Shown: piece after piece, positions 4,374 through 63,510 of the stretch
Layout of the letters: each line of letters opens with the position of its first letter
Position numbering within the stretch: the stretch's first letter is position 1
Notes under the pieces: model-generated
The model's input: the letters and a program-made list of their open reading frames with translations, nothing else
What the model was told of the DNA's origin: nothing
Databases searched by the model: none
Program-made: the position numbers and the translations under genes
Source: Eutreptiella sp. 'Long Island Sound 2002'
Taxonomy: Eukaryota > Euglenozoa > Euglenophyceae > Eutreptiales > Eutreptiaceae
DNA: 64,000 nt
Assembly (NCBI GenBank): GCA_964036045.1
Contig: OZ038381.1
Span: 103,173,367 to 103,237,366, forward strand
Reading direction: 5' to 3'

Positions 4374-4746
4374 CCCTGCGTGCGCGCAATGGTGCATTTT
4401 TTCCATAGTGCGCGCAAATTTTGAAAAATATGACCTTTGTAGCGCGCCTATTGCGCGCGCTCTACCGCGCTATATTGTCCCGTTTTTCAAATTTTTCAAA
4501 ACCGGAAAATGTTTCAAAACCATGCTTTTTCCAGTGTCCTGTGTTTCTCAAAAACCCCTTGCTTTTCAAAAATGTTCCTTGTTGCTCACCCAACCCAAGA
4601 CACATGCAAAAACACTTTCTGAAAGGTCTGCAAAGTGTGCAACAGTACAGGTCCTCATGGGCGCCAACAGTGTAGCGCGCGCAACATATTTACAGCGCGC
4701 GCTATGGACCTTACGGCGCGCGCTATACCAGGTATAGCGCGCGCTG
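4374..4746. promoter_or_regulatory. E1 left terminus with GCGCGC word array
   Basis: Contains the terminal repeat and about ten copies of GCGCGC words (TAGCGCGCGC, GTGCGCGC) in two groups, 4376-4475 and 4674-4746, separated by a low-complexity stretch. The array begins directly after the stop codon of the accessory gene at 4747. Confidence 0.85.
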
Positions 4747-5712
4747 TCATTTAGTGATCTCCTTAATGGTTTGGACCACCACTTCGGCCTCCCACTCCTT
4801 CTCCCATTCGGGTCTGTGGTCTTCTGCCCCAGCGGCAGCTGGGGCTTCGTCCCCTTCTCTTTGTGGGCTTGGGTCGCCTTCTGGGGTTGCTCCTTCTGGT
4901 GCCTCTTCTTCTTTCGGGGCTGCTCCTTCTCCTTCCTGTGGCGCGGCCGCTGGTGCCTCTTCTTCTTGTGGTGGGGCTGGTGCGTCGTCTTCTTGTGTAG
5001 CTGCTGCTCCGGCTGGTGCCTGTTCTTCTTGTGCAGCTACTGCTGGTGCTTCTGCTTGTGCTGCAGCTTCGGCAGGTCCCTCGTCTTCTTGTGGGGGGGC
5101 TGTTGGCTGGGCTATTGGGTCTCTTTGGGGATGCTTCTTCTTTGGGGTTGGTGGCTTAGACGGGGACATCCTCACGCTCTTTGGGTCGGGGCAGAGGTCC
5201 TCAATCTCATCGGTCTCGTACGTCTCCCACCACGACTGCCACTTGTCCAACTCCTCATGCGCTCTGCTTTTGGCGGAGAACACCTGGCAGCTGGGCATGA
5301 ACTCCGACCAGTCGTCCTCTTCCTCCTCCTCCTCCCCTTGTTGGCTGGGGCTCCACTGATCGTTGGGGATGATGACGGCCACGTGGTCCTGAGGGGCCCT
5401 CCTGGCCCCTGCTGGCTTGATTTCGGCTCCCTCCACAATCATCGGCGCGATCGCAGTGGTGCAGTAGATGATCCACCGAGGCTTGTAGCCGTCTTTGTAG
5501 GACCAATCTCGGCGCTGCATGAGCTCATCTCTTGCCTCCTTGTCCGCGTCGGCTCTGCTCTGCTGCTTGGCCTTGGGAGCCGTACTGGGTGGGGTGGAAC
5601 CGCACGGACCTCTTTGTTCTTGTGGCTGGTCTGGGACTGGGACAGGCTGCTTCGGTGCTGGCTTTGATGCGAGCTGCGGCTGGGGTGCCTGCTGCGGTGC
5701 CGTCTTGCTTGC

Positions 5713-5827
5713 CTGGAAAGAGTAGCGCAGAGGCATAGCACAGGCATAGCACGCGCAATACGGGGCATAGCACGCGCGACGAAATGCATAGCACGTGCAA
5801 TGACACCGATAGCGCGCGCTGCATTAC
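5713..5827 (-). promoter_or_regulatory. E1 accessory intron 3, filled with the family word
   Basis: Donor AAAAG|GTAATG and acceptor TTTCCAG|GCAAGC. In 115 bases there are about six TAGCGCG/TAGCACG-type words. Exon frames on both sides are phase 0 and join cleanly. Confidence 0.85.
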
Positions 5828-6457
5828 CTTTTCTGCTCTCTCCTCCTCTGCTTTCTTCCGTTTCTTCTCCTCCTCTTCCTTCTCCTTCTTCTTCCTCCTC
5901 TCTTCCTCTTCCTTCTCCTTCTTCTTCCTCTTTTCCTCCTCTTCCTTCTCCTTCTTCTTCCTCTTTTCCTCCTCTTCCTTCTCCTTCTTCTTCCTCTTTT
6001 CCTCCTCTTCCTTCTTCTTCTTCTTTGCTTCGTCCTCTTTCTTCTTGGCCTGTTCCGCGTGACGTTGGACTCTCTGTGCCGCCTGTGCCATCAGCTGCTG
6101 GTCGGCGGTCTTCTGGGCAAGGACCTTGCCAGGCGGGTGGGGGGGCTTAGCGGTGTGGGAGGCGGAGATGGCTGGTGGTAGGTGGCTGGTGGCTGCTGGC
6201 TCCTCGGTACGCTTCTTCTTCGGCCTTGGGACTGTCACGGATTCCGTCTCCGGCACAGCAAAGGCGTCGGCCCAGTCTACCTCCAGCTCCTCCATCTGCC
6301 GCTTAGCTCGGGCCAGCACCGGGGAGGGGCCTTGCTCCTTCCGTCCATCAAGCCAGTCGGCCGCATGCTTGGACTGCCTGGCAATGTCCGCGGGCACGCT
6401 GATCATCAACGGCCCTCTGCGGGATCCCAGGCACAGGAGCTGCTCGAAGGTGCCAAC

Positions 6458-6582
6458 CTACGTGACAATGGGACAGAAGGTGGGGCCGTTGCGCGCGCAA
6501 ACAATCAAATGTCGCGTGCTACAGCAAATGAAGCGCGCGCAACAATGTTGAAAGCGCGCGCAATGGCAAACATAGCGCGTAC
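6458..6582 (-). promoter_or_regulatory. E1 accessory intron 2 with GCGCGC words
   Basis: Donor CACAG|GTACGCGC and acceptor CACGTAG|GTTGG; 125 bases, phase 0, with about five GCGCGC/TAGCGCG words. The E3 copy (22276-22400) has the same length. Confidence 0.85.
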
Positions 6583-7455
6583 CTGTGCCTGTGCCTGTTG
6601 TTGTTGTTGTTGTTGCTGTTGCTGGGCCATCTGCACCCGCTGCTGCTGCTGGAGCAGCTGCAGTGTTGCCTGCTGCACGGCTGCCTGCTGTTGGAGCTGC
6701 TGCTGCTGCACTTGCTACTGCTGCGGCTGCTCGTGGTCCTTGACCGCCGTGGTTTTGACTTTGGCGCTGGTTGCAAGTGCCCTTGCGGCACTGGCTCCTT
6801 TCTTGGCTGACCCCCGCAGCAAACTGGCACCCGCACTTCTCACCGAGGCACACTCGTTCTTGAAGGCCATTGCCCCCGCGTCGGTCGCGTTGATGAAGCT
6901 CGGTGGGTCCTTGTTGAAGTAGAAGTGGTGGACGGTCTTTGCGGTGGCACCCGGAGGCGTGTGGGTCCGAATGTGACCCCACCTGTAACTTGCCCAGCAC
7001 GAGAACAGCAGCTCGTACTCCTCCACCTTGCAGTGTCCACATGCAGCTTGTCCTTCTTGGGTTGGCACGGAGGGGTTCAACAGGTTCGCCAGACTGCACC
7101 AGTGGCCAGTAATGCTCTCGTCATGCCAGCACGGTTGCACGGCTCCGTCTGGGATTTTGGCAATCGCCGTGGCCCTTTGGCGCCAGAACTTGTAGAAGGC
7201 CACCTCGAAGAGGTAGGCCGGTGTCACGTCCTTCAGCCATGCCCAGTCGGGCCCTTGGGCGCAGATGGTGGGATGCAGTGTTCTAGGGCGTGGTGCGGAA
7301 GCCGCCCAATTTTGGGTGTTGTTAATATGGTTGGAACCCGGAATTTCACATGTTACATGGGTGCACTATGATGCAACAATGTGCCTTCCATGTTTCGTTT
7401 GCTCGATATTGCCCGTTTTGCACTTTTTGCGATTTGATCTTTGTGTGCTCTAACT

Positions 7456-7605
7456 AGTTAGAACGGGGTTAGAACGGGGTTAGAGCACTAGTTATCGCGT
7501 GGGTTATCGCGCGATAACCTAGTTATCGCGGGGGTTATTGCGGGGGTTATCGCGCGATAACTAGTTATCGCGCGAGTTATCGCGTAGGTTATCGCGCTTC
7601 ATTTT
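7456..7605. promoter_or_regulatory. E4 left word array
   Basis: About nine TTATCGCG words, several as the palindrome TTATCGCGCGATAA, mixed with CTAACTAGTTA and TTAGAACGGGG. The accessory gene begins about 50 bases downstream, so promoter overlap is likely. Confidence 0.85.
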
Positions 7606-7653
7606 ATGTTTCCCCTTTTCGCTTTAGCTCTCAAAGCTTTCATATTCTTTGTA

Positions 7654-10600
7654 ATGGCCCTTGCTGCTGCCCACGCTTGATGCGAGCACCATCAAAAGCT
7701 CCTTGGGGTCCTTCGCCTTGGCGGTCCTGAGGGGCTTACGATGGGTGATGCCAATGTGAGGCGCCCTGTGCCGACCCGCTTTGAACATGGTGTGGACTTT
7801 GGACTCCTTGTCCATAAGTCCCCCTTCATGGCGGACAAGCGAGACCCCCTGGTTCTCAGCAACTACATCTTCGAGTTGCTAGAGGTAAATCCAGGGGTTG
7901 CTGCATTTTTGATCCAGCTTCATACCGAGGATGTGGACGCGGTGGTGGAGTCCGTCACCGCTCATGCCGAGAAGGGTGCGGGGACGAAGACGACCCTCTA
8001 TGTGGGTCAGGAGGAGGAGGAGGAGGAAGTGGAGGAGGAGGAGGAGGATGCGGGGGGGGTGGGGGCTGGGGGGAGGAAGGAGAAGCCCCACAACCCCCTC
8101 ATGATTAGTGTCCAGAAGGTAAGGGTGAGACGTGGTAAGGGGAAGGCGAAGTCGGATGGTTGGTTTCCCCAACCCCCCACCCCGAAAACAAGCTCCCCAT
8201 GCACTCCCTTTGCCCCACAAGGGAGTGGTAGCGTGAGTGGTATGGGGTCACCACTCCCAACATTATTTCGGGGCAGGGGGTGATTCTTTTTCCATTTGGG
8301 GCAACCCCCCCCCTTATTGGGGAGGCGGAGGAGGTGGTTGCCGCCGAGCCCTTGGGGGCCTTTAATAGGGACCCCGATGACCTTGTGCTCACGGTGGGGG
8401 GAAAGTTGGTGGTCAACCACCTCCTGGAACACGATTTTTTGAGTGACATTCAGCTGCAAAGTCTTTTGGATGATTTGGATAGGGTGCCTCTCTCACAGAA
8501 GGCACCCATTTTCAATGAAAACCCCCCCATTGTCGGCAGGCCCCAAGATTCTGGGACCCGCCGCACATTGTATGGCAACTATGCGGGTGCCAACCACCAC
8601 AAGCACAACCCCCACAAGTTCCATGATCTGCCAGTCCGCAAAAGGGTGGCAGATCGTGTGCTTGAGACCGCGAAGGAGACTGTGGTGGGGGGGGTCGGAT
8701 GGAGCTGCACCATCCTTGACATGGCCGAAATTTCGAGCTATGACCACACCCCCCAGCGCCCCCCCCTACACCATTCCTGAAGGCACATTGATTGTCAATT
8801 GCCTTATTATGCTAACCCATAATCATGAGGAGGAGGATGGGTCACATTTTCTTTTTGTGCCCTCCAGCAGCTCGGGGTTCCCTGACCCTTGGGTGGAGAG
8901 GGCTGTGCCATTCAAGAGGGGCACTGCCTTTTTTTTTGATGCCCTTGATGTCCACAGGGGGTCGGGGATTCCCAAGGCCTCCCCCATGGGGGTAAGGGAC
9001 CCCCGCCTCATGGCATTTTTTGCCATTGAGCTTACCCAAGGGGGGAATCTTCGATTCCCCAACCTGCACGTGACGCAGTCCATTTAAAGGCCCCAGCTGG
9101 GGGCACCTGGTGGCCGGGTGGCCAGGAAAGTCCAGTGTGATGGGGCGGTTAGGTGTACGGGGAAGGTGGTAGCCAATTGCTACGGATGCAATCGGCTGAT
9201 TTTGTGCACCGCCCACAAAGATGGCCTTTGTGTGCCATGCCAGGAGGGGGAGGAGGTGGAGGGGGGGGAGGAGGAGGTGGTGGTGGTGGACCCCAATGGG
9301 GTCAGCATTGAGCAATCTGCTGAGTGCTTGCTCCCGGTGGGAACAACCACAGGGCATTTTTTGTTGTCGGGGTGGGAGATCCGGAGGGAGGTGATTGCCC
9401 CCCTCACTAATGAGGAGGCGGGGGCGGTCCCAGCCACCCCGAACAGTGCCCGTTGGCCAAGGTGTGCCATGGGGAGGCACTGCCCTGGCCCACCTTGCAA
9501 GGGCATGTTGGGATTAAGGTGCCGGCGGGCACCATTTTGGTGGTGAGGAGGGGGTTGTATGGGGGAGTGGCAAGGGTGTCCCCTAAGGTGCAGGGGGTGG
9601 CCCAGGTGGTGGAGTGGCGGCAGGTGGGGGAGTATGCGGTCATCACGGACTTCGTGTGGCTGCGGAGGCTGGGCCTGGTGCTGGACGACGCCAAGAAGGA
9701 GGGCCAAGGCATGTGTCCATGTCACCAGGTTTGAAAACCTCCCACAACACCCTGCTCTAACCCCTGCTCTAACTAGTTATCGCGCTAGGTTATCGCGTTC
9801 TAACTAGGTGCTCTAACTAGTTATCGCGCTAGGTTATCGCGTTGTAACTAGTCATCGCGGGGTTATCGCGGGGGGTTATCGCGGCGGTTATCGCGCGATA
9901 ACCTAGTTATCGCGGGGGTTATCGCGCGGGTTATCGCGTGTTTTTTTTTGGTTCTTTTGTTTTTTTCAGGCTACCATCTTGCAGCTGCCCCGTATCTTCG
10001 TCAAGGACGACGCCCAGGCAGCCGAGGCAGCAGGCGGAGCAGCAGAAGCAGCAGGGGCACGGCCCGCCAAGCCGGTGGTGGCCCGGTTGGAGCTGGAGGG
10101 GGAGAAGAGGCTGCCGGAGGGGGCGTCGTGGCGGTGGGGGGAGCCTGGGGATGAGGCCTGCAGGATGGGGGGGACGGGATGGTACCGGCAGGTCACCATC
10201 ACCGAGAAGGAGGGGGGGGTGGAGAGGAAGACCAACCTCACCCTCCCCTCCTATGTGTGGGTTGGGGGGGAAACGGCCAAGTGGCCGAATGCCGCAGAGG
10301 GGGAAACGGTTGCGGCTTTTTTGTGTTTGTTTGGGATGAGCGACCCCCCCAAAAGGAAATCTTATCTCCTTTTGAGGGTGTGTTTTTTGTGGGAGGGGGA
10401 GTATACGGGGAGGGAAGTGTGGCAGAAGCTGCACAGGGGGGGGGGCATCCACCTGGTTGGTGGGTATGACCCCCCCCCTTCTGTGGTGGACGCCACTGCC
10501 GATTGGGTTCGGCAGTATGCACCCAAGGGGGGAAGGCCGGGAAAAGGCCAGACGAAGCGGGGACCAGACGTGGTGGTGGTTGAGCCGGATGCCCCCCCCC

Positions 10601-11111
10601 CCTTAGGGGTAAGGGCTAAACCCCCGCCCCCAAGCCCTCCCCCAAGCCATGGAAGGTGGCAAAGGTGGCGGCGGCCCAGCCCCCCCATGAGGCCCTGGAC
10701 GTGGAGGCCTTGGGGGCCAGTGTGGCCACCCACGTGACGGACGCTTGCCAGGTTTTGGTGGAGCAGGCGGCCGCCACGGGGGTCGAGGCCGCACTGGCCA
10801 AGGGTCAGTCGGCCGACCACAAGTCGGCCTTGGCGAAGGCCGAAAAGGCCCAGGGCAACATCCAGCGTGCCCTGGACGAGGCCCTCAACCTGGCCGCCAA
10901 GAGGGGGGAGGAGGTGGAGGCGATGAGGGAGGCCCTGAGGGAGGCCCAGGAGGGGAGGCGGAAGGCGGAGGTGGAGGCGGCCCAGCTTAGGGTGGAGGTG
11001 GAGGGGCAGCGGAGGAGGGGGGATGACCTCCAGCAGCGCTTGGGGGTGGCTGAGGCGCAGGTGCGCAGCCTCACCTCCACCCTCTGTGCCTCACTCGGGT
11101 TGCAGAGTTAG
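7654..11111 (+). pseudogene. E4 accessory gene: 2OG-oxygenase-like, Cys/His cluster, coiled coil
   Basis: Two exons (7654-9728 and 9970-11111). Order: N-terminal region ending in an acidic Glu run (about 8010-8050); an oxygenase-like domain (about 8390-9060) ending with DVHRGSG and a later Arg before a hydrophobic strand; a Cys/His cluster at about 9133-9240 with spacing C-x5-C-x7-C-x2-C-x5-C-x2-H-x4-C-x2-C, likely binding two zinc ions; then, in exon 2, a basic linker, the SIM-like DVVVVEPD and a coiled coil (about 10660-11100). The same order in E6 supports one ancestral gene. Breaks: TGA at about 7678, frameshifts near 8275, 8750, 9440 and 10640, TAA at 9085. The first iron-ligand HxD pair is not obvious, so oxygenase activity is uncertain. 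Confidence 0.55.
9729..9969 (+). promoter_or_regulatory. E4 accessory intron with TTATCGCG array
   Basis: Donor CACCAG|GTTTGA and acceptor TTTTTTCAG|GCTACC, 241 bases. It contains about eleven TTATCGCG words plus CTCTAACTAGTTA copies. It is an intron occupied almost entirely by the element's own word. Confidence 0.8.
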
Positions 11112-11144
11112 GGTAGCGGGAGTAGGAGTGGGAGCCAATGACTA

Positions 11145-11777
11145 GTGGATTTGCTCAAGGGGTTGCCCAAGGGCATTTTCCGTGGGGAGGAGCGATATGG
11201 GGCCCAAGTGGACATGTGCCACTTCGGCCTCGTGGGAAGTGGAAACCCCAACCCCTCTAATTTCAGGGCGACCCACGTGGCCGCTGCTACCCTCAGGCCT
11301 GCCCTCACCCCCTTGGTTGCAGACCTCAATGGGTATTGCACCTCCAATGCTCCACCATGGTTCACATGGTGTAGCATCCAAATTGTTCGCCCCCAAGGGA
11401 CGGACACCATGGGCCTCCACTCCCATTTGCGGGATGGGGCGCCCATGGCGCTTATTGTGTGTGTGGGGTCTTTCACGGGGGGTGAGTTTTGGGTGGAGAG
11501 TGGTGGCCTGCTGAATCCCTCCATGAGGAAAAAAAAGCGGCACACCCGTGTGTGCAAGGGTAGGGCGGTGGAGGGTTGGGCATGCACCGCCACCCCCCAA
11601 GCCCCGGTGTTGTTCAACACCGGGGCACTACACGCTCCATTGCCATGGGAGGGCGAGCGATGGAGCGTGATTTTTTATAGTGCGGGGGGGGTTCTGCACT
11701 GCACGCCTGTGTGGCGGCAGCAGCTGGTGTCCATGGGTTTTAGGGTGCCCAATGCTTCCTCTAACCCCTCCAGCTAG
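11145..11777 (+). CDS. E4 TET/JBP-like 2OG-Fe(II) oxygenase ORF
   Basis: Features of the TET/JBP type of 2-oxoglutarate/Fe(II) dioxygenase: a Trp-rich strand (FTWCSIQ, about 11360), a candidate iron-binding segment LHSHLRDG (about 11416), FTGGEFWVE (about 11475), a distal GALHAPLPW (about 11624) and GERWSVIFY, whose Arg would bind 2-oxoglutarate (about 11650). The same blocks recur at 63513-63973, which supports coding. Such enzymes oxidise 5-methylcytosine or thymine in DNA. The first ligand pair is H-x-x-D rather than the usual H-x-D, so activity is unsure. There is no in-frame ATG before about 11214, so it may be an exon of a larger gene. Confidence 0.55.
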   Translation: MDLLKGLPKGIFRGEERYGAQVDMCHFGLVGSGNPNPSNFRATHVAAATLRPALTPLVADLNGYCTSNAPPWFTWCSIQIVRPQGTDTMGLHSHLRDGAPMALIVCVGSFTGGEFWVESGGLLNPSMRKKKRHTRVCKGRAVEGWACTATPQAPVLFNTGALHAPLPWEGERWSVIFYSAGGVLHCTPVWRQQLVSMGFRVPNASSNPSS

Positions 11778-12261
11778 TGTAATTTGTGATTCGATTATTG
11801 TTCACTATTTGTATTTTTTATGCTTTGGTGGGATGCCCACCATGGTTTGTCATTGTTCACTCTGAGGAGGGGCAACTAGCCCGGAACATGTCCATTTGAC
11901 TGATTTGAATTTGTGATTGTGGCGCCATATACCCCGTGCCTGCACATTGTTGACATCTCCAAGGTTTCCTGGGTGCAAAATCAACGTTTGTGAAGGTTTT
12001 AGGGTGCCCAACGCTTGCTCTAACCCCTCCAGTTAGTGCGCACTAACCCCTGCTCTAACTAGTTATCGCGGGGGTTATCGCGCGATAACTGGGTGCTCTA
12101 ACTAGTTATCGCGGGGGGTTATTGTGCTCTAACTAGTTATCGCGGGGGGTTATCGCGGGGGTTATCGCGCGATAACCTAGTTATCGCGGGGGTTATCGCG
12201 TGGGTTATCGCGTGTGTTCTTTGGGCCCTTGCTTCAAACCCCTCCCTCATTTCGTGTTCAG
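11778..12261. promoter_or_regulatory. E4 intergenic or intronic word array upstream of the transposase
   Basis: About 270 bases without recognisable coding, then eight or more TTATCGCG words at 12058-12215. It ends in TTCGTGTTCAG (12261), a plausible splice acceptor just before the transposase ATG at 12277. Confidence 0.75.
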
Positions 12262-12276
12262 GTCCTCTTATTCTTC

Positions 12277-13938
12277 ATGGATAGTGCTGTCAATGAGGCC
12301 CTGCGGGCTCTCAACACAGCTAACCTCCGGCAGTACACCGATCTGCAGTGCCCCAAGGCCCGGCGGCGGCGTTTGAAGGCGGTTCAGCGGCTGGTGCGAG
12401 TTCTATTGGGTGACCCAAACGTTGTGTGTGGCACCAACACCAAAGGCGAAGTTTGTTTAAGTGGTGGGGCGTGCACTGCCCTGTCTGGCCCACTTGGCGG
12501 CCATCTTGCATTAACAGCTCAGGAGCATGAGGCCGTGAGCATGCTACGCATGGCATGCAGCATGCATCTCTCCCAACGGGCCCTTTTGCGAATGCCCCGC
12601 CGTTGCACACAACGGGACCTAAGGACCGTTCGGCAACGGATCATGCCCTACTTTCCCCAAACAACCATTGTAAAGTCTACCACAGGCCGCAATAGGGCAG
12701 CTGCCCATGTGCCTTTGCAATCAATTGTGCAAAATGCAATATCTATGGCCCAAGTTATCGGGAAACCCCCCCCCTAGTGGCGTTGCCATTGTTGTTATTT
12801 CAGTTCATGCGACTTCCTGGTGGAAGGCATCCTCTACCTGTGCGGATGTATGGGTTAATGTATGGGGGGGGGGGCAAAATATGCTTCGAAGGTGAAGCTA
12901 TGGGCCTCATGGTTTTGCATGGATGGCGGGGATGAACAGGTTTTTTATTTTAGCCTGGACATCTCTGCCAACCTCAACCAAGAGGTGAGGGATGTGGAAG
13001 AGAACGTTGTCCTCTTTCAAAACCAATTTTTGACTTGCACTGTCATTTTGACAGGGGATGGGAAGGGGATGCAAGCAAAGGGGTGGGCTGGGTCTAAGTG
13101 TTGGTTGTGCAAAGACCCCAATGGGATTGTTGAGCAAAGGGGGGTGGAGTCCACCTCAAGATGGGGGGCATTCTTGAGAAGTGTGACCCCTGATAGGCGG
13201 CCGGGGGACTACCAACATGCAGCATGCCGCATCCTAAACGGCATTGCAAAGCGCATTGAGACCACCCTTCAGGCCCTCCCCCCTGGTACCCCTGGTAAGG
13301 CCCAAGCTCCTGCAGCTTTGCAGGCCTTCAAACAAGCCCTCAAGGATGAGGCCTCAGGCATCCCTCTCAGGGAACGCCTCCCTTCGGCCTCGAGGGCCAC
13401 AGAAAAAGATTTCGATCTAACAAGCACCAAAGTTTTCCTAACCTCCCCCCCCTTCCAAAGGCAATTTGTGGATTGCCTCAAAGAGCATGTCCCCACAGTG
13501 AGGACCCCTGGGGGACCTATGTTATGGGTTGTTGTGCATGTCATGGTGAAATGCATTGAGGGTTTGTATGAGCTTTGGAGGGTGAGGGAGTTGTACACTC
13601 TAACCCAAGAGGAACGCCACCGTGCGTTGACCACAAAATTTTCAAAAGCGTGGGGAGACTCAGGTTGGTCCCCCACCAGGTGGATTCATTGGTGCTTGGC
13701 ACTGTCCACCTTTTGTGCCGAGAAATGGAGGAACATTTTTCAGTTTTCCTCCATCCCAACGGAGTATCGGCATGGGCCTTACAAAAGGAGGCTCAAAAAT
13801 TGTTTTAAGGGTTGGTCCTTGGTGAGGCCAAGTGTGTCCCTCCGCCACATGCACCATTGCATGTCCATGAACGCCCTGGAGCAAGGGCTTTTGGGACTGG
13901 AGGCAGCCAAGGCCTCATACATTGATGACTTTGCATGA
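12277..13938 (+). pseudogene. E4 transposase (CACTA-like, D-D-CxxC-E type)
   Basis: The product aligns by motif with the E6 transposase: MDGGDEQ (first Asp region), LTGDGKG (second Asp), GWAGSKCWLC (Trp then CxxC), RRPGDYQHA (His region), then HWCLALSTFCAEKWRNIF and PTEYRHGPYKRRLK with the candidate last Glu. The N-terminal part is basic (ARRRRLKAVQRLVR). Reading frame is lost in two homopolymers, C9 at 12766-12774 and G11 at 12864-12874; otherwise it is open for about 550 codons. It would cut E4 ends during cut-and-paste transposition. The ATG was chosen because it lies 15 bases after a good acceptor. Confidence 0.75.
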
Positions 13939-14319
13939 AAAACGACCACACATGCTTTGTGCCAAGTGTTTTGTGTTGTTTGTCCTAGGGAGGGAGGGGG
14001 GAGCGGTGCGCGATAACTACACGCGATAACTACGCGATAACCGAGTCATCGCGCGATAACTAGCGCGATAACTAGTTAGAGCAAGGTGCTCTAACTGCGT
14101 TCTAACTCTGTTCTAACTGTGCTCTAACTCTTTGACCCCCCCCCAAAAAAACCACCCCTACAATGAGGGTTATGTGGGGAAAGAAAGGGGATGGGGGTTT
14201 TTTGAGGGTGCTGAATCCATTTTTTTAGGTGGTTTGCCCCAAAATTGAGGGTAGGTGGGTGTTCCAGAAATTGCGTTCTAACTAGGGGTTCCGCACCACG
14301 CCCTAGAATGCTGCATCCC
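13939..14319. promoter_or_regulatory. E4 right subterminal region
   Basis: An array of GCGATAAC words (14009-14080) with GTTCTAACT repeats (to 14125), then C/A-rich sequence and the terminal inverted repeat ending at 14319. No gene. Confidence 0.8.
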
Positions 14320-14731
14320 AGGTGCTGTTTTGGTTGGGCCAGATTCGGTTCTTGAAGTTGCTGCTGAAGGCGCAGCCCGTACGTGGCCCGGGTGGGGGAG
14401 ACTGCAAGTGTGCTTGCACTTGGGGTTGCTGCTGTCTTGCTTGGACCTGCTGCTGCTGCTGCTGCTGCTGTTGTGGGCTGCCGACTTGCTGGCCCGCAGC
14501 CTGCACTTGCTGCTGCTGCATTTGCTGCTGCTGCTGCACTGGCAGTGGGCCGAAGAGCACTTGCTGCACTGGGCCCACTGGAAGACTGCCGCGCACTGGG
14601 GAGCCCAAGGTGGGCGACCCACCGGGGAACAGCATGGGAGACAGCTGCTGTGAGGCAGCTCGTAACGGGGACTGCGGCGCGGGCCACAGAGGCTGAGTTG
14701 GGGAGAACTCGGTTAGCGTCTGGGAAAGCGT

Positions 14732-14874: not shown

Positions 14875-15033
14875 CTGTGGCTGCATGCTCCACGCCGTCG
14901 TGGACGGCTACTGCAGTCCCGGTTGTACATCTGCATGTGGCGGTGGTTGCGGTGTCGCACCAGCTGCTGTGGCCCCGGCAGCAGTTGTTGGCGGTGCTGC
15001 AGGAGGCGGATACCCCCAGCCCACGGGCTGCAT

Positions 15034-52213: not shown

Positions 52214-52239
52214 TACACAGTTCGTACGCACCGCCTACG

Positions 52240-53440: not shown

Positions 53441-53829
53441 CTGTTCACAACGGAGTGATGTTTTTTCACCCCCTTGCCCTGCGATGTCTTGGGAGAATAG
53501 GCAGGGGGGGAGGGGGGGATACTTTTCACGTCCGTGCTCGGCCCGTGTTAACACAACACATGAGGGGGTGGGGGGGTACTTTTCACCGCTTGTGTTGGGG
53601 CCGTTTTAACACCTCCAATAGGTGGTGTGTTGTGTTATGTGTTGTTGGGTTGTTTTTCGGTGTGTTGTGTTGTGTTGTGTTTTGTTGTGTTGTGTTGTGT
53701 TGTGTTGTGTTGTGTTGTGTTGTGTTGTGTTGTGTTGTGTTGTGTTGTGTTGTGTTGTCATGTTGTGCGGACAATCTGTAGGTTTGTAGATTCCTGTGTT
53801 ATGTTGCATGAGCACTCTCGGGGTGCTAC
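53441..53829 (-). promoter_or_regulatory. E9 intron, 3' part, with GTGTTAACACAACAC words and TTGTG run
   Basis: CGTGTTAACACAACACA at about 53546 and a TTGTG-pentamer run (53619-53757). The intron continues on the other side of PB2 (61763-62150). Confidence 0.75.
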
Positions 53830-54442
53830 ATATTCCTTTGGCTACCACGCGTGGAATGCATATCAGGAAATTTTCTCGCGTTTTTTCCTTTTATCATTGT
53901 TTTGTGCTTCCGGGGGGTTTTCGAGGGTGCCCGACGCAATGGAACTATCCGTTTAGCTCAGTTCAACCACTTTTGAGGAGAGAAGCTCAATTGCCTCCTG
54001 CCTTTGCCTTTGTCTTGGTGCTACGCATGCTGCGTGTGTTGCGCGTCCTGCGCGTTTCGGTCCGGTGCCTCTGAGTCTGCCTCTGGAAGTCTTCCTACGC
54101 GTTCTACGCGTTTTGCAGGGGCTAATTGCTTCACACCTATCATTCAGCACCTGATTTTTGTTTTTTGGTGTTTTTTTGCCATGCTTGCACCCGTGTACTC
54201 TGCCACGCACTTGCACTGGTTCCCAATAGAACTGAAACGTGCGTATTCAAATAACCATTGCCTCCCGCCTATGCCTTTGCCTTGGTGCTACACTGCCCAC
54301 GTGTGTTGGGTGTTTTGTGTGTTGTCATTTTTCGCTTCTGACGTTGCCTCTGGAGCCGTTGCACGCGTGCTACGTGCTCTGCAGCATGTTTTTGCCACAC
54401 CATTGTTAGGCCGCTCTGCTTTTGTGGTGCACGAGCCATGCC

Positions 54443-55180
54443 TCGTCAGGTTTGAAGGGATGTGGGCACATTGGGACAGTGCGTTTGCCCCGGACAAAGC
54501 AAAAGAACACGTCAACACGTGTCCGGCGGCAGGGTTCTGGGCGCCAGGTGAACAGCCAACTGCGTGGGTATCCGTTGCAGGGCTCGAAGTGCCTATACTA
54601 TATACCACAGCATGGGACGGAGCAGCGCTGGGCAGGCCCCAGTCCATTTTGCGTTTCTCTCCCAAGCGAGACAAGAGGCTACTCAGGGATTTTTTCAGCC
54701 AGTTTACGCTGGCAGATTTTGTGATCCATGAAGTCTTCTCTCCACCCCGTCACACAACCTGCCCCATCCCATGTGTCCTTGTAGCCCGCTTCAAAGACAA
54801 CGTGCCCATGGCGTTTGTACATGTGCAGCACGTATGTTTGAAAATCTGAAAACTGTTCTTTCTACATTCTTGCACTCACTGTACAATGTAAAGTTGAAGT
54901 GGGAACCGCATGACAACGTGGCCTAGCTATGTGAGTGCGAGTTTGACAGCTCAGGGCCTTATTTCCTGCTGCGAAAAGGCGTAGTACGCAGCCTGCAGTC
55001 AGCACTGAGGCCTGATTTTGAGTGGCAGCCTTGGCTGCCTGTGACCTCACCAAATGCCAGAGAGGTGCTGCGGTCGACCTTCCCCTCCCTCCTACACAAG
55101 AGTCTTCTGTACTGTTGTAGCAGCCAAGGCCTGATTGCAAATGTTAGATCCCTGGTCCGGGGTGCGGGATGGCACTGCTA
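54443..55180 (+). pseudogene. Reverse-transcriptase fragment inside PB2
   Basis: An open frame to 54849 with LRFSPKRDKRLLRDFF and VARFKDNVPMAFVHV; RFKDN may stand for the RT motif with the catalytic Asp pair. It continues as LKWEPHDNV and LIANVRSLVRG after a stop, homologous to the base retroelement at 44330-44740. It lies exactly at one inversion junction of PB2. Confidence 0.5.
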
Positions 55181-55184
55181 CCAT

Positions 55185-57735
55185 GCAACTCACCTTCAGA
55201 GGCAAGCCGAGAGGCAGCAAAACGAACACGTGTGGAATGCGCAGAACGCGGAGAACACGGGGCCTACATCCAGAGGCACAACCGGAGGCTACGTGCTAAT
55301 CCCCTGGAACGCATAGTACTAATGTGCAACGCGCACCTGTGCACCCTCCGTGTGCGGGGGTCCCATCTCCGGCCCCATCTCCGGCCTGCCTTGCTGCTCC
55401 CCGGACTCTGACGGTGGTGGTGGTGGTGGCTGAGGTCCCCGCGGTAGTGGCGCTGGTGGGAGTAGTGGCGGTGGCGGTGGCGGCAGCGTGGGTTGCGGTG
55501 GAGGATAGGTGGGTGGCGGCGGGTACGCGGGGGGCTGGTACTTGTACGGGTCAGACCCATACGGGAGGCTCCCGGAGCTCGAAGGCATTTCGGGATCCGT
55601 CTTCATCGGCTGGTACTCGTACCGCAGCTCATACTCGTACCGCGGCTCATACCGATACCTATACTGCTGCGGCCACTCCTCCCAGCTTGTCTGCAGAACA
55701 TGTAGAGCGCGCAAAACAGGTAAAACATGGGAAGGCAAATGCAGAGGCAGTCACACAATCAAACGTGCAGACCGCGTAGAACGGGTAGGACGCGCAAAGC
55801 AAACAGGAGGCAACTCTAGAGGCAAGTGGAAAGACTCGTGCCACACCGCCCAGCACAGGAATGCACACCCGCTGCCTCTTTGCATTCTTCGTCGTCACGA
55901 GTGTCCATGCCCCTGTGTCGGGCAGGTCGACACCTCTGTCCTCCGTTAGGGTGTAGGCCATGAGGCGAGCCATGCGGACCGTGCGCGACAGTTTCTCCTG
56001 TACAGACCACGCAAAGCGCGTGCAACACCGCAAGGCACCCCCAGAGGCAACGAAGAGGCGCAACATCGGGAACACGTAGCACGCGCAGAACGCGAAAAAC
56101 GCGCTACACGCTGGACCGGAGGCGTTAGAGAGGGAACACGCAACACATGCAGTACACCTGCAAAGCGTCAGTGGGCATGTCGACAATGTCCTCCGCACCG
56201 AACGCACTGGGTTGGTCCATGCTGCGCCGTGGTTGGTATCCTGACGAAAGGGGCTCCCCCTTCAATTTTGCCAACGGCCGGCCTGCAGCTGCGGGGTCAC
56301 CAAAGTCCGTAGGCCAGTCCAGTGGCTCCGACATAGTTCGTCCACACGGACACCCCCTTGATTAACCCAGTTGCGACTTGGCGGGGTGAGCTGCTGTGGT
56401 ATCGCTCCTCAATCAGTTCTCTGGCAACGGCCGTGCTTTGTGCATTTTTCGTGCCATGTCGGAGGACCATCTGCACACTGTACGCCCGCACGTCAATCAC
56501 CAGAAGCAGCGCCAGGCCCAATTTGCGGCGGGCTTGTGTTTCCTCGGCCAAACACACTTTGTAGTGTTGGCATACTCGTCCGAGTGACACTTCGTACTCC
56601 GATTCCAGGGTGCGCTGCATGGCCTGCACATCGTTGTCGTAGGCGGCCCCGGCTTGGTACTTCTCCCCTCGGCTTGCACCTGTGGGCATCTTCCTGCGCG
56701 GTTCGCCTTCCACTGTGTAATGCACATGCTTGGGCTTCTCCTCCACTTTCCCCTTGCCCTTGCTCTTCTTCTTGGGTGGACTCTTTGCCTTTTCTTTCTT
56801 CTTCTTGGACAGCTCCTGCGGCTCTAGCTTTGCCTCTGGCTTCGCCTTGACAGGGGTCCCCTATGGTTGTGCTTGTGCGGCCATGCGGGCAACCTCCAGG
56901 TGGGTGCTGCGGGGGGCGCGTTGGGCGAGGGAGGGCTCGTCCTCGTCCTTCACACTGGCATCATCACTGCCCTCTTCGTCCTCCTCGTCCTCCTCCTCCT
57001 CAGCTGCCTCCTCTTCCGACTCCTCTTCCGACTCGTCCTCATCCGAACTCTCCGTGGTTGCGTCATCTTGGATCCACGTCCACAGCCGGTCGCGCGGAAA
57101 CTGTAGAACATGCAGAACAGGTAAGACACATTGAGGCAACCCCAGAGGCAACAACGGAGGCAACTGTCTGAAACGCGCAAAACGCCCGGAAAGCGCAAAA
57201 CGCGTAGCACACAACCAGAGGCAGCTCCAGAGGCAACGAAAAAGGGAACGAATAAAACGCGGGGAACGCACAGGACACCTTTCTGTATTTCAAGAAGCCA
57301 ACTTTCTTGTTCCGGACGTCTTGCACCACATGTGGCGCATGTGGCTTGCCCTTCGGGGCCTTCACCTGTAAAAGGGTGCAAGGGTAATTTGTAGAGGACA
57401 AAAGGCAGCGCGAAATAGTGCTCACAAGAAATAACTAACCGCAAACCCGTGAACGTGGTACACCTGATACGTTGTGAGGTTTGTCAACCAAAATTCTTTG
57501 TCCTGCCGGTCCTTGGCCCCTTTCTTCTTCCGATTGACCCATCCGGCATGCCACCCCGCTGCGACACAACGGCCTGAGGAGGACAACGGTGCAAGGCGAG
57601 AAGCGAGATGAAAACGAAGACACACACACATACTCGTGGTTTTTTTAATTTGAAAGACAACGAAGGCGTCGTGCTTCAGTTTCTCTGGATGCTTCCACTC
57701 CCCTAGCTTCCCACCCTTCTGCAACCATTGAGAAT
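55185..57735 (-). pseudogene. PB2 accessory gene, inverted and separated from its last exon
   Basis: Same exons as PB1 (acidic, Lys-rich, mixed domain, Tyr/Pro-rich exon 55690-55338) with the same word-filled introns (55700-55830, 55990-56155, 57100-57270). Small changes: a frameshift near 56320 and TAG at about 56862. The last exon is not downstream but lies at 58234-58419 on the other strand, so the gene cannot be made whole. Confidence 0.7.
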
Positions 57736-57744
57736 GTGTGGCGG

Positions 57745-58225
57745 GGTACAGGGAACTACTTCAGCAAAGCACAACAGGCACCAACTCCTCAGCCAAAAAT
57801 CAATTGAACATGGTAGGGTCTGAAATAGGGTGCATGTGTGTGCAGAAATTTGTCATGACATGCTCTGGTGTACACAAGCAGCAAATTTTTGGTGCTCCAC
57901 TCCTCTTATTTCTACCCATCCCTTTCGCGGTGCTGTCACAAAAGCCTGCTTATATCATTTGTACTTAGGTGCATGCCATGGTGTTTGTGTGTTTCTGTAA
58001 ACGGGCTTCGGGAGCTTAAAAAGTTACCCCGCAGGGTATGGTCACTGCCTGTCACCCTATCCCTCCCACTGGCCCCCACACTTTTTCTCCCGCAGAAGGT
58101 GGGGCTGTTGGGTCCTGCCTGCCTGTCGCCGGTCACGCCACACGCCACGTGCATGTCCTATGACACGACACGACCCAACACATCATGTATCCTCTGCAAC
58201 TCTGGTTTTGAATTCTTTCCCCGTG
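57745..58225. other. Unassigned insert at the second PB2 inversion junction
   Basis: AT-richer sequence absent from PB1. No domain is recognised in its short frames. It ends where the accessory-gene intron resumes (GTGTTCTGCAG). Confidence 0.45.
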
Positions 58226-58233
58226 TTCTGCAG

Positions 58234-58419
58234 CACCCAATCAAAACAGAGCCGGAGGAGGAGTCAACTCCACCAGTGGATCCACCGCAGGAGCCGGAGG
58301 CAGCCGAGAAAGAGAGCGCTGGGGCGGCGAAGAGCGATGCGGAGATGGGAGAGCAGCCCCCAGAGGAAGCCGCAGCGGCGGGAGAGAAGATGGAAAAGGA
58401 CGAGATAGTGCAGATTTAG
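58234..58419 (+). pseudogene. PB2 accessory gene last exon, orphaned
   Basis: Starts HPIKTEPEEE after the GTTCTGCAG acceptor and ends in TAG, matching PB1 41137-40952. The IKTE sumoylation-type consensus is kept. Confidence 0.8.
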
Positions 58420-58727
58420 TAAATCGGTCCGACCTAAGTTGCAGCAGCCCAGACAGCATATTTTCAAACACACAGTTTTCGGATGGGGATGGGCTTGGGG
58501 ATGCGCATGGGGATGAGTGGCCTGACCCCGATGAGGTACGCGGCAGACAAACCTCACAACCCCTCTTCTTTTCAAGGCCATTGCCGTTGGCCCAGCAAGC
58601 ACACTTACAGCCAATCCCACAGTGGTGGCATCGGCAGCCGGCGCTTCCATTGGGGCACCGCTGAACACGGTTTTTTTTGGACGCCTTTATTTATTGTGTT
58701 GTGAATACTTTTTCGACCTTCGGATGA

Positions 58728-61376
58728 ATGGTGGCGGCTGCGACCGCTGCCTTGCGTAGACCATGCAGGGTGCACGGACACCGTTTCAAAAAAGCAACAA
58801 TCGAATTGTTCGTGCTGCCGCCCCCATTGACTCATCCCCACGGCCCTTTGCCCAGCCCATGTTCCCGCAACGTGTCCTGTGTGTGTTTCGTGTCGTACGC
58901 GCTCTACGTGTCCACTTCTGCTTTTGCCTCTAGAGGTCGTGTTGCGCGTTCTGCGTGTGCTGCGCGTTCTGCGCGTTCCGCCCATGCTGCCTCTGCAGTT
59001 GCCTCTGGAAGTGCCACTGGTGTGTTGCGTGTTCTACCGAGTCCCATTTCTCAACAATCTTATTTTGTGATACCACCAAAATTTCAGCCACCGCTGTACG
59101 ACCATAGGCTCCCACGGGAGGACCCTGCGGCCCATATCCAGTACGGTATCTGGCCAGGGGAGTCCTGGCTCATCGGCTGTACTGAGGATGAGGTCCGGGA
59201 CCATATCATGGCCCCCATAGAGAATCTACAATGCCAAGCCCTACGGGACGACGGAAGGCAAGACCTGATACCTCTAGTACCTAGGTAGAATGCATTTCTA
59301 ATTCTATTGGGGATGGTGCGACCCATGAGGGTGCCATTCCCGCGTCCCCCCCGCGCCCCCCCACGCGTCCCCCCTGCGTCCCGTTGTACCGGTTTTGAGG
59401 CATTTTGCCAAAACGTCGAGATATGTAGAAGAGAGTAGTAGAATGTGCACTTGTTCTAACAGGTTTTGGTGGTTCTTGCTGTCATTTCTACATGCAGCTC
59501 AAAATGCTCTGGAAATTGTTGCTATTTCTTTTTCTGCTGCTCCCCTTGTGGGGAGAAGCTTCAAATGTTACCAACACTTCTTTCGGTTGGAAGTCTCCTT
59601 CGGAGCCTTCCGTTGTGTTTCGTGGCTATTTTGGTGGACCCGGGGGAGGAGGTGGCCCCGGTGCTCCAAGTGTGGATGTGTTCATCTCGGTCCGTGTGGA
59701 ACTCCCTAGTAATTTGGTGGATACTTCAAGTGTGCAAGCTCTTGTCGCTGCGGTATCTCATGAGGTTGAAGAACAAACGGGGTTGCATTTCATTGATGTG
59801 GGTTCTACATTGGTACCACAAGCGCCACACACAATCATTGTCACCGGTGCGCTTTTTGGAGGAGCATTGCAGTGCCCATTCTATCATGAGAAGCAAATTG
59901 CTTCTCAATGTGGATTGCACGTAGTGAACATGCTATTGGGCCGGCGGCAATACACTAGAGACTCGTTTATGGACTCGGTGAATGAGCTGCGTACTGAGTA
60001 CTGTGTACTGCGTACTCTCCCGCGTCCCCCCCGCGTCCTATCCCCGCGTCCCCCCCGCGTCCATGGCACCCTCCATGCAGGTGGACGGGGTTTGGGACCG
60101 CAAGGGCCTCTTATACAATCCCTATATGGCAAACATGCTGACGCGTCGCCAATATTAATTGCTGCAAGGGTTGCTACGTACCGATGTGGTCTCACTACTA
60201 GAAGACTGCAATGGCCAATGGGCGGGAGTGTGGTGCATTGGCGGTGGGGCCTGCGGGATGAGTCGGTGGTGCTCCACAAGGGGATGCTAGCGGGCCCCTT
60301 GAAAATGTTTTTTGCCCGGAAACCGCACCCAACCGGGATAAAGTTGTACTGCCTGGCGGACACAACATTGGGGTATGTGGTGGACATGTATTTGTACACC
60401 GCTGCACGGGGCACGCTACGCCGCTACGGCACCGCGGCGGGAAATTTTGATGCCAAAAACATCATGAAGTTCTGGGCATCATTGCTACGCGAGGGGACGG
60501 CGCTATGTGCCGACTCCTTTTTCGGGTCCCACGGCCTCGCAAAGGAACTGGCCGCCAACGAGCGGGCATTGCTCATGATGACGAAGAGGTCCACGTACGG
60601 CGTGACATGGGCCGGGGAGCACGTGCAGGAGGGGTAGATGGCGGTGTGCACTGTTGCGGATTTGAAGTACAGTTTGTGCGTGTACAAGAATCCGAAGGTC
60701 GGGCACAAACGCCCCGCGTTGTGCCGATGTTGACGAATGTGTGGTTTGCCCGCAGGGGACCACCTCACCGGCGAAGTGGGCGCGAAGTGCACCCCGTCGT
60801 GGCGGCGTACCGCACACTGTCGCGCGGTGTCGATGGTGTGAACCAAATGGCCCTGCAGATGAGGCAGGTTGGCCGCCAGATGACATGGGCCCACGCGGTG
60901 CGTGCGTTCGTGCTCTGGTACGCGGTTGTGAATGCGTTCGCAACTTGCCGGCAATTGGGACTCTGCAAGGAGACCATTAGTATGTGGGAGTGGCAATGGC
61001 AACTGTTGTGGCGGCGGTAGTTTGCCCACCCCCTCCGACAAGAGGTGCACGTGCCGGTGGCGACACAACGGCGGCGTGTGTGCCACTTTTGCAAGAGGGG
61101 AAGAACCGGTTATGAATGTACCGGTTGTGGAAAGGCGTTCGACGTGTTGTGCTTTGCACCGGGACATGGCTATGGAGGTGTGCAAGGCGCACGGGACATG
61201 GAGGTAGACGAGGAGGACGAGGAGGTGTGGGAGGAGTACCATGAGGAGGACGAAGAGGATTGGGAGGACGAGGAGGACGAGGAGGGTGAGGAGGATGAGG
61301 AGGATGAGGAGGACAAGGAGGATGAGGAGGATGAGGAGGATGAGGAGGATGAGGAGGATGAGGAAGATGAGGAGTA
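58728..61376 (+). pseudogene. PB2 piggyBac transposase
   Basis: First exon 58728-58871, then an intron with PB words (58872-59040). The core resumes after a foreign segment at about 60070: RDESVVLHKG (first Asp, about 60260), FARKPHPTGIKLYCLADTTLGYV, CADSFFGSHGLAKEL (second Asp, about 60515), then RGVDGVNQM (third Asp, about 60830), YAVVNAFA, a zinc ribbon (CHFC, CTGCG, LCF; about 61080-61155) and a Glu/Asp tail to 61376. These match the piggyBac DDE_Tnp_1_7 family in order. Breaks: shift near 60200, TAG at 60636, shift near 60740, TAG at 61018. It cuts at the ATAT-flanked ends (inferred). Confidence 0.8.
59336..60065 (+). mobile_element. Short segment with CGCGTCCCCC words and a Josephin-like protease fragment
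   Basis: CGCGTCCCCC repeats at 59350-59390 and 60018-60062 enclose an AT-richer open frame (59492 to about 60010). It starts with a hydrophobic signal-like stretch and contains PFYHEKQIASQCGLHVVNMLL (shortened here: HEKQ, CGLH, N), the pattern around the catalytic Cys of Josephin (ataxin-3 type) deubiquitinases. The downstream catalytic His region is absent. It is likely a captured host-gene fragment moved by a small element. The family call rests on one motif. Confidence 0.45.
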
Positions 61377-61529
61377 GTGTGGTGGAATGGGGAGCTTGAA
61401 CGAGACGGTCATGGAGGCGGAGCCTCTGCTATCCCTACCCATGGGACCACTGCGAACCCTGGGGGACAACCGCGTAGGCTGGATACCCACCTGTGAGGCC
61501 GCGGCCCCTCCTCGATGTGCGCCTGTGTG

Positions 61530-61758
61530 CAAACCGACGTGCTGCGCGTTTTGCGCATTCTGCGCGTTCCGGTATTTCAATTCTGCACGTGCCTCTGGAG
61601 GTGTGTGTTCGGCGTGCTACGCGTTCTGTGCGTGTTACTTGGTCTGTGCGTGTTGTACGCGTTGTGCGCACTCTACGCGTTTTCAAAACCTTACGTGCAA
61701 CACCGTTGGCCACAAAAGCGCGCCTCCGGCCAGAAACGTACAGATGGTAGACAAAGGA
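61530..61758. promoter_or_regulatory. PB2 right subterminal word array
   Basis: GCGCGTTCTGCGC, TTGCGCATTCTGCGCGTTC and GCCTCTGG words, then the terminal repeat. Reverse of PB1 39382-39612. Confidence 0.85.
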
Positions 61759-61762
61759 ATAT

Positions 61763-62150
61763 AATTGAACCCGCTGTCTTTGGGTACAATATGTCATAAG
61801 TGCATAAGTGGTCCAGCAATTGTTGCACTACCTTTGCACGTCTCCATTGCTTATATCCACAACACAACACAACACAACACAACACAACACAACACAACAC
61901 AACACAACACAACACAACACAACACAACACAACACAACACAACACAACACAACACAACACAGCACAACACAACACAACACAACACAAAATCTTCGGCTTC
62001 TTGTGTTGCCATGGGGTGGACAAAGGGGGGGGGGTACTTTTCACGTCCGTGTTGGGCCTGTGTCAACACAACACAGGAGGGGGTGGGGGGGTACTTTCCA
62101 CCTCCGTGTTGGCCGGCCGTGTTAACACGCCGAATCCCTTTGAGGTGCAA
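61763..62150 (-). promoter_or_regulatory. E9 intron, 5' part, with AACAC run and GTGTTAACAC words
   Basis: A run of more than 20 AACAC pentamers (61858-61985), then two CGTCCGTGTTGG/GTCAACACAACACAGG blocks (62040-62130). Continues at 53441-53829 beyond PB2. Confidence 0.75.
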
Positions 62151-63123
62151 GACTGTGTGAGGCAACCCTGCAAGGAGTTACATGGGTGTGCACCCATGCA
62201 ACAGCGCGCCTCTTCGTGAAGCCATGGTGTTGTACAAGAGCCCTCCAACAACCATCAAGGCCACTGTGAGTAACACGTGTCACCCCATGCAATGCATAGT
62301 CAGGAGGCCTGTACTTGGGCAAAACTCTACGTAGCACCTGCCCGTACCAGGTCCAGTGTGACACAATGGGTGAAAGTCCCTTCCCAAAGTCGCGATCGCA
62401 ACGTGCCCGGCATTTTCCACATACCCAACACACCGGGTCTACACTGGTGCAGTTCCATCTTTTGATGCCTGCCATTGCCTGTTGTGCCACGACATCTGCA
62501 ACCAGGAAGATATTGGGTTTTTCCATGTAACCCCCTTGTGCTTCATACTTTGTGTTTAGGGCCTCTTGCACCTGCTCATCCATTTTGCTAACCCTTCTGA
62601 GTGATCGTAGCACAGCACGTTTTTCAGAGCCGTGTAAAATGCACCAGCTACCAAGCGGGTTACCCAATCCAAGCACTCCAAGCATAAAATGCTCGAAGTG
62701 CCGCTTGTGTAGTTGTGTACCATCCACGCAAAGGCGTACCTAGAGGTCCGGGTACAAATTTCCTTTACGGGCGGCCATCATGAGTCCCAGTTTCTCCCTC
62801 AAATTTGTACCGTCCCCCAGCAATTTGTGGTCCCCGTCCATTGCATTGTAGTCAACTACTGGAGGTGCACTAAGTTGGTCCTTCACTCTTTTGACTTCGT
62901 CCAGGGGGCATTTAATCCGGGACGTGGGGATGGAGTGCTGTAGGGCCCGCCAGCTTTTGCCCTCCGTGCGGCGATCCCACAGGAGCACCTCTGCATGCCA
63001 CATCTGGTTTTGAGGCATGGGCCCATCCGTCGTTTTCAAAATGAGGGTGCTCACGTTTTCGTCGGTTTGCACTTGCCAGGCCAGACCAAGAATTTCCGTG
63101 ACTGCCGTTTGCAGTTCGGCCAT
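62151..63123 (-). pseudogene. E9 transposase, first exon
   Basis: ATG at 63123; TAG at 62740, then the same frame continues with RLCVDGTQLHKR (first Asp), VLGLGNPLGSWC, MAGIKRWN and VCWVCGKCRARC (CxxC), RPPDYALHGV (His). The order equals the E6 transposase. The donor to the PB2-split intron lies near 62180; the last exon is at 53440-53043. One nonsense codon and one frameshift make it inactive. Confidence 0.65.
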
Positions 63124-63249
63124 CCGTTCCCATCTCTTAGTCCTTCGCAGCTGTTCTTACTCCTTGATGGGGGCATGCTCCTTGAGTGGGGGGGGGGGGA
63201 CCCTAGGGAAAGACAACAAGGGGGGGGTGCATGGACACAACAAGGTTCG

Positions 63250-63510
63250 CACGTATAGGCACCAGTGCAACACTCAACACGTACGTGTGCGCGTACGAGT
63301 CGGCACAGCAACGCGTATGCGTTTCATTTTTAATGCGTACGTTCCACACCAGCGAATCGTACCTTTCATGAACCTAACGCGTACGCGCCAGAACAGCGAA
63401 TCGTACTTGTCATGAACCCAGCGCGTACGCGCCAGCACAGCAACGCGTAGGATGCAACACCGTACCGCCTACGCACTCCGCACTCAAACGCGTACGCGCC
63501 CCTTCCACAA
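63250..63510. promoter_or_regulatory. E8-type word array (ACGCGTACGCG)
   Basis: About ten words such as ACACGTACGTG, CGCGTACGAG and ACGCGTACGCGCC. The same word family flanks E7 at 47700-47888 and 52216-52245, so these may be two parts of one element split by E7 and E9. Confidence 0.75.

Follow-up and report, generated by a model that had tools for sequence, protein, structure and literature searches.

The subject of this analysis is a 64,000-nt stretch of the Eutreptiella sp. genome (C4:103173367-103237366, within a 2.28-Gb assembly; referred to below as the window), which self-comparison showed to be a nest of DNA transposons, and the short words that these transposons repeat in their non-coding parts. 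The privacy of the words to their families and their layout are real. As observed directly, the words are private, symmetric in most families and placed in non-coding DNA; in families E1 and E8 they stand at fixed steps with differing spacers, and between sister families the word changes. On balance, the words are probably operator arrays bound by a sequence-specific DNA-binding protein that each family makes itself, and the fixed steps together with the change of word between sister families are the strongest evidence for such a protein reader.

Element territories were drawn from a self-BLAST of the window, and words were counted in the window as exact matches on both strands. A sequence-only reading of the window had proposed that each family has its own, unshared word. 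All 78 of the 78 exact copies of the eight words that it reported fell inside their own named family (GCGCGCGCTA, 29; TTATCGCGCGATAAC, 10; TTGGCGCGCGCC, 6; GTACGAAATTCGTAC, 7; AACGCGTACG, 4; GTGTTAACACAACAC, 1; GTTCTGCGCG, 7; TTGCCTCTGG, 14), the family of the single E9 15-mer at 53545 being assigned by position; the expected number of copies per word in a second-order Markov model was 0.0000-0.30. The words were not equally frequent elsewhere: in a random-genome sample of six 10-kb stretches (60 kb in total), five of ten word cores were absent (GCGCGCGCTA, GTTATCGCG, ATTCGTACGAA, GTGTTAACAC and TTGCCTCTGG) and four were rare (ACGCGTACG and GAATTTCG, one copy each; CAGAACGCG and TTGGCGCG, two each), and the core GCGCGC occurred in 17 copies. 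Genome-wide controls were reversed words or patterns. The E4 word TTATCGCGCGATAAC had 5177+5176 matches genome-wide and its reversed control had none; among the matches listed, 49 of 51 had another within 8 kb (random spacing would be ∼440 kb) and a 43-bp step was seen 12 times, the spacings matching those in the window. For three families the candidate matches in the genome ran into thousands.

The description of the words as near-palindromic and CpG-containing held for E1, E4, E5, E6 and E8; it failed for the piggyBac-like words, one of which (TTGCCTCTGG) contains no CpG, and in part for E9, the palindrome of which is without CpG. E9 is the weak case: its 15-mer is present but occurs only once, beside an (AACAC)n microsatellite, and four near-palindromes complete the evidence.

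The mapped arrays (Table 1) likewise supported the proposed placement of words, across unrelated superfamilies, near the two element ends, in intergenic gaps and in likely introns, the latter predicted from GT..AG candidates and an open joined frame. E1 words occupy gaps whose GT..AG candidates keep the joined frame open, with many alternative candidates also fitting. Two further E4 copies (L043 and L044) carry clusters at the same four places as the window copy (36, 40 and 35 half-sites), and the intron array was kept in both. This layout bears on the possibility, which we take seriously but hold with reserve, that the words serve the transposition machinery only, a transposase or TnpA-like helper pairing the ends and the internal and intron copies being by-products or autoregulatory. 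Clusters lie near both ends in E1, E4 and E6, and a 3.4-kb element outside the window (L049, described below) retains its palindrome at both sides. The terminal inverted repeats (TIRs) of E6 (GTTCACGAAGGGTA) and of its sister family (AATTCGCAAAGGGTA) differ in the same half-site, each resembling its own word, and the E1 TIR carries TGCGCGCA. The E4 TIR, however, is without the E4 word, and the dense arrays of E4 and E1 in likely introns and between genes lie far from the ends.

Neighbouring words keep regular distances. In the window, E1 words lie mostly at 21-bp steps (a period of ∼21 bp; 21-22), none of 2000 random placements being as regular; none of 2000 matched the seven exact 22-bp steps of E8; and 21 of the 24 short steps between neighbouring symmetric cores in E6 measured 11 bp. 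Inner-spacer identity in the E8 ladder was 0.28 against 0.82 for the words. Genome-wide patterns with free gaps gave 21 or 22 bp for E1 in 94 of 100 places among the matches listed (13-41 allowed), 22 bp for E8 in 94 of 100 (14-42 allowed; at least 19 different spacers) and 63-64 or 74-75 bp for the piggyBac-like words in 83 of 100 (59-89 allowed), with 85 bp in four more; these places are copies of few positions and are not independent. Pairs numbered 855+842 for E1 (control 4+3) and 376+906 for the piggyBac-like words (control 80+99). Since the spacers of E1 and E8 are unlike or nearly so, the ladder is not accounted for by tandem duplication of recent date.

The change of word was seen in a sister family of E6, represented by the protein P0024, which a protein search with the E6 transposase showed to be 58% identical to it (6477 candidates in the genome, 93 of them scored; for the E6 transposase 8540 candidates, 74 scored). 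Its arrays are placed as in E6, in the gap between gene 2 and the transposase gene and behind the latter, but are built from GAACTTCGCGC instead of GAAATTCGTAC. In the flanks of 30 E6 copies the E6 unit had 303 exact matches and the sister unit none, and nine E1 words were also present, perhaps from neighbouring elements; in four sister copies the sister unit had 13 exact matches and the E6 unit none. A more distant set of ten copies, with 65-83% identity to P0024, comprised four with exact sister units, two with exact GATTTTCGCGC, three with GATTTTCGCGC at one mismatch only and one without any; the E6 unit appeared in one-mismatch form in two of the ten and in exact form in none. CpG-type transitions alone would convert the sister word TTCGCGCGAA to both E6 palindromes, TTCGTACGAA and TTCACGTGAA, a history that we infer from the sequences. 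The words might instead be bound by proteins of the host (repressors or origin proteins), a different one for each family by chance; the words would be private in that case too, and the sequence is compatible with it. We judge this quite improbable: the words are rare outside their families, and it is less economical to assume a separate host protein for every family that changes along with the transposase lineage.

Two further families with private palindromes turned up unsought, which indicates that the layout is not limited to the window. In L049, one of the random stretches, the 3.4-kb element (5062-8490) has inverted ends and, at either side, the 22-bp palindrome TTTGGGCACTGCAGTGCCCAAA, which has 373 exact matches in the genome (control 0). 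Beside one sister copy (L054, minus orientation, 3474-3766) lies an array of the 20-bp palindrome CTGGCCGAAATTTCGGCCAG at 69-71-bp steps, behind which an open frame begins; core pairs of this palindrome numbered 2461 genome-wide (control 0), with steps of 68-72 in 48 of 50 among the matches listed. In a further stretch (L052), GCGGTAC words are separated by three steps of 33 bp.

The reader would probably be a coiled-coil accessory protein, or possibly the transposase. In most families the symmetric words would be dimer sites, and copies of the reader would bind side by side, presumably cooperatively, at the fixed step, so that only same-family DNA with many in-phase words would be bound strongly. 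The heptad-rich proteins encoded before the transposase in E4 and E6 are candidates for such a dimeric reader: none of 2000 shuffles was as high for the E4 protein and 59 of 2000 were for the E6 protein, and the Pfam matches of the two proteins, mainly to coiled-coil families (several of them for the E4 accessory protein), all lay below the cut-off. Less surely, binding may preserve access to the DNA of the family in the face of CpG methylation and may activate the family's genes and its transposition, the part played by VANC in VANDALs and by TnpA in Spm.

Several observations weigh against such operators. Pfam scans, which covered part of the open reading frame (ORF) set, gave no match of any kind above the cut-off in the accessory ORFs scanned and recognized no DNA-binding domain there. 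AlphaFold models of the E6 transposase (pLDDT 48.8) and of the 212-residue E4 protein (pLDDT 39.1) were too low in confidence for use. The piggyBac-like words are not palindromic, and their 63-bp steps are partly due to an additional word that lies 12 bp away from the main one; the E4 steps (12, 13, 18, 31, 43 and others) form no clean lattice; and the non-independence of the genome places noted above reduces the weight of the step distributions. The genome-wide E8 pair count (800+757) was no better than its reversed control (311+1223); it was dropped as evidence and only the step distribution was used. The E1 spacers show a slight likeness (identity 0.29 against 0.25 when shuffled, 95% limit 0.28), and over all E8 spacer columns identity was 0.38 against 0.25, the bases adjacent to the words being shared. 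CpG sparing in the E6 arrays as a sign of hypomethylation was not seen; CpG transitions amounted to eight per 1288 CpG positions in the arrays (shared ones counted) and to 15 singletons per 190 sites × 28 copies in the E6 transposase gene, decay being no slower in the arrays than in the gene, which is adverse or neutral to anti-silencing. Finally, E6 array units are gained and lost as tandem repeats, their number varying between copies, and five of 30 copies have no TTCGTACGAA remaining in the 3′ array. This last point would suit arrays that are passive tandem repeats grown by slippage or recombination, as would the growth by tandem repeats reported for VANC targets in the part of PMC5735166 consulted. 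We nevertheless regard passive growth as very improbable: in E1 and E8 the spacers differ though step and word stay, the sister arrays hold another word at matched places and the L049 palindromes are widely separated.

The arrays measured are rich in CpG. Five of them had 103-150 CpG per kb, with an observed/expected ratio of 1.8-3.6; the ratio was 0.28-0.86 for one flank and two transposase genes (E4 transposase gene, 19 per kb, ratio 0.28; E6 gene, 56 per kb, 0.71). The dense array CpGs may be selected for while an element is active. A fair hypothesis, to which we give only tentative credence, is that the words act in sequence-specific anti-silencing, the bound protein removing or blocking CpG methylation, possibly by way of the 2-oxoglutarate (2OG)-dioxygenase-like protein of the element. 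The CpG-dense arrays beside CpG-poorer genes are consistent with this, as are word mismatches of the CpG C-to-T or G-to-A type (13 of 15 in E1 and 14 of 26 in E8), the weak 2OG matches in E4, the partial relative of the second E4 protein in E8 (44% over 71 residues) and parallels in the portions of PMC5735166, PMC10398659 and PMC12730594 consulted. It is opposed by the unspared CpGs of the E6 arrays and by the E6 one-mismatch words, of which only 8 of 81 were CpG transitions (10 of 81 were CpG transversions and 58 of 81 were TTCGCACGAA or TTCGTGCGAA forms, mostly at array edges); the dioxygenase assignment lies below the Pfam cut-offs. As to a TET/JBP-type 2OG dioxygenase, sequence searches of the PDB gave no solved relative for the two E4 proteins; a search with an E6 transposase profile gave none either. 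A more elaborate scheme, which we consider unlikely, is that several superfamilies each evolved a private, phased, CpG-rich operator code whose fast-changing dimeric reader would bring a transposon-borne 2OG dioxygenase and so demethylate the element's own DNA, an addressable anti-silencing system based on an enzyme, words turning over by CpG deamination (TTCGCGCGAA to TTCGTACGAA and TTCACGTGAA).

Among known systems, VANDAL elements offer a close parallel, as the sequence-only reading had suggested. According to the portion of PMC5735166 consulted, the VANC21 motif is dense in non-coding parts, including introns, is rare in other families and is gained by tandem repeats; the words described here are likewise short, family-private, dense in non-coding DNA and likely introns, different between related families and growing by repeats. 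The VANC21 motif YAGTATTAY, however, is non-palindromic with arrays in one orientation (same portion), unlike the mostly symmetric words here; VANDALs are Mutator-like, whereas the present elements are CMCT-type and piggyBac-like; E1 and E8 words, unlike those of VANDALs, hold a fixed step with differing spacers; and no VANC-type domain (DUF1985 or related) was found by Pfam in the subset of ORFs scanned. CACTA/EnSpm elements (Spm, Tgmt) resemble them in that each family has subterminal motifs of its own, the presumed targets of an element-encoded DNA-binding protein, and two soybean subfamilies differ in both motifs and transposases (PMC2613891, in the sections available). The catalytic motifs of E6 are related to those of CACTA/EnSpm. 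In contrast to that group, the words here also occur between genes and in likely introns, symmetric words stand at 11-, 21- or 22-bp steps, the target-site duplications (TSDs) are 2 bp and the termini are not of CACTA type: read by eye, E1 begins CCCTGCG.. (TSD AC), E4 TGGGATGC.. (TSD GG) and E6 CCCTTCG.. (TSD TA), none having a 3-bp TSD. In an alignment read by eye, the E6 transposase (AVDGT, CADGK, CWVC, HIWIDH and MEGSH) showed the CMCT set D, D, C(2)C, H(3-4)H, E. The likeness to the CMCT clade (Plavaka/ESTA/EnSpm-like) covers C(2)C, H(3-4)H and 2-bp TSDs, TA as in ESTA (PMC12730594, part of the text); that system is fungal whereas the present one is algal, the dioxygenase-like match here is weak and the word 'subterminal' is absent from the text of that paper. 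Membership of piggyBac is indicated by the DDE_Tnp_1_7 domain in PB2 (59492-60634, E = 9e-12). The piggyBac target duplication is TTAA; both PB1 and PB2 are flanked by ATAT instead. Among the titles and abstract openings listed in searches of open-licence papers, none described private palindromes in phase in transposons, whether of algae or of other organisms. Compared with VANC targets and CACTA subterminal repeats, what is new is the fixed stepping of symmetric words whose spacers are free, the spread across superfamilies and the change of word between sisters. Neither the stepping nor the change of word had been noted in the sequence-only reading.

Table 1. Transposons, word arrays and associated genes in the window (positions counted from its first nucleotide)
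Feature	Position	Strand	Basis or remarks
E1 element	4374..17318	-	TIR CCCTGCGTGCGCGC, 2-bp TSD AC; split by E4; empty-site paralogue at 44842-45287
E1 word array (AGCGCGCGCT)	4674..4745	.	Steps 20,21,21
E1 word array, likely intron	5748..5820	.	Steps 21,42
E1 likely intron, word-filled	6458..6582	-	GT..AG candidate 6582-6458, 125 nt
E4 element	7269..14320	+	TSD GG; nested in E1; E3 has the empty paralogue, near 23088
E4 word array, 5′ subterminal	7487..7597	.	Word mapping
E4 2OG-dioxygenase-like gene part	8443..9084	+	Copy L044: PhyH E 0.039, 2OG-FeII_Oxy_3 E 0.083, both below cut-off
E4 word array, likely intron	9754..9948	.	Word mapping and GT..AG candidates
E4 accessory gene, heptad-rich end (coiled coil)	9970..11110	+	Candidate word reader (putative role)
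E4 word array preceding transposase gene	12040..12222	.	Word mapping
E4 word array, 3′ subterminal	14005..14075	.	Half-site mapping
E1 word array, likely intron	14750..14845	.	Steps 21,45,20
E1 word array	15259..15331	.	Steps 21,21,21
E1 likely intron, five words	16764..16876	-	GT..AG candidate, 113 nt
E2/E3, further E1-family copies, same words	19410..25820	-	Self-BLAST and word mapping
E5 element	25940..27440 (ends approximate)	+	Words TTGGCGCGCCAA, two pairs 42 bp apart
E6 element	30619..37497	+	TSD TA, 11-bp unit GAAATTCGTAC
E6 array	33000..33125	.	Word-step mapping
E6 array, gene 2 to transposase gap	35053..35177	.	Word-step mapping
E6 transposase	35284..37047	+	D, D, C(2)C, H(4)H, E by eye in alignment
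E6 array 3′ of transposase	37155..37240	.	Word-step mapping
PB1, piggyBac-like	39378..44326	-	TSD ATAT; four pairs of CCAGAGGCA 74-75 bp apart
E8 array	47722..47887	.	Ladder of eight ACGCGTACGCGT-like words, all seven steps exactly 22 bp, spacers differ
E7, second E6-family copy, internally deleted	47888..52215	+	Inserted in E8 array
E9 words GTGTTAACAC (weak case)	53545..53612	.	Word mapping
PB2, piggyBac-like	53830..61766	+	DDE_Tnp_1_7 E 9e-12; words as PB1
E9 words GTGTTAACAC, other side (weak case)	62060..62128	.	Word mapping
E8 array, other side	63277..63521	.	Steps 12,22,66,44,67,22

The bounds first given for E4 and E1 were corrected to 7269-14320 and 4374-17318. E7 is without the E6 segment from 33021 to 35539 (E7 counterpart 50257-50268), a deletion that begins within the word array. 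With its TA target, E7 is inserted in the E8 ladder (47876-47890 and 52214-52235), the words of which have a central TA; PB2 likewise sits between E9 words, and insertion into the arrays of other families is possible. E6 itself sits within an element (28279-39319) rich in open frames (37499-38590, 29327-29896, 28279-29235 and 29991-30641) without a Pfam match above the cut-off, perhaps a retroelement. In-frame TAA and TAG in E4 and E6 raised the possibility of a code in which these triplets specify Gln. This was rejected: the E4 copies L043 and L044 have AAG and E7 has CAG, which together with a host CCT1 gene ending in TAG points to the standard code, the window copies carrying nonsense changes. 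Elsewhere in the window, 417-4122 holds three tandem copies of a ∼1.2-kb repeat with shorter inner repeats (87-92% identity). Outside it, a plastid-type rbcL on contig C2205 scored highest against rubisco entries from Chlamydomonas, from which a chlorophyte host was considered probable; the chromosome-size contigs C7 and C2 carry full-length plastid-type rbcL copies (nuclear plastid DNA or misassembly), and contigs C52, C907 and C1441 carry chaperonin genes in long open frames, perhaps from bacterial companions.

The findings suggest that the private address words of VANDAL and Spm elements are one instance of a general device, which has arisen in unrelated transposon superfamilies. They add a physical rule, symmetric words stepped by about one or two helical turns with spacers that are free in E1 and E8, and this rule opens the reader protein to testing. 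Two sister families whose words differ although their transposases are 58% identical would constitute a natural experiment on the joint change of a DNA-binding specificity and its target.

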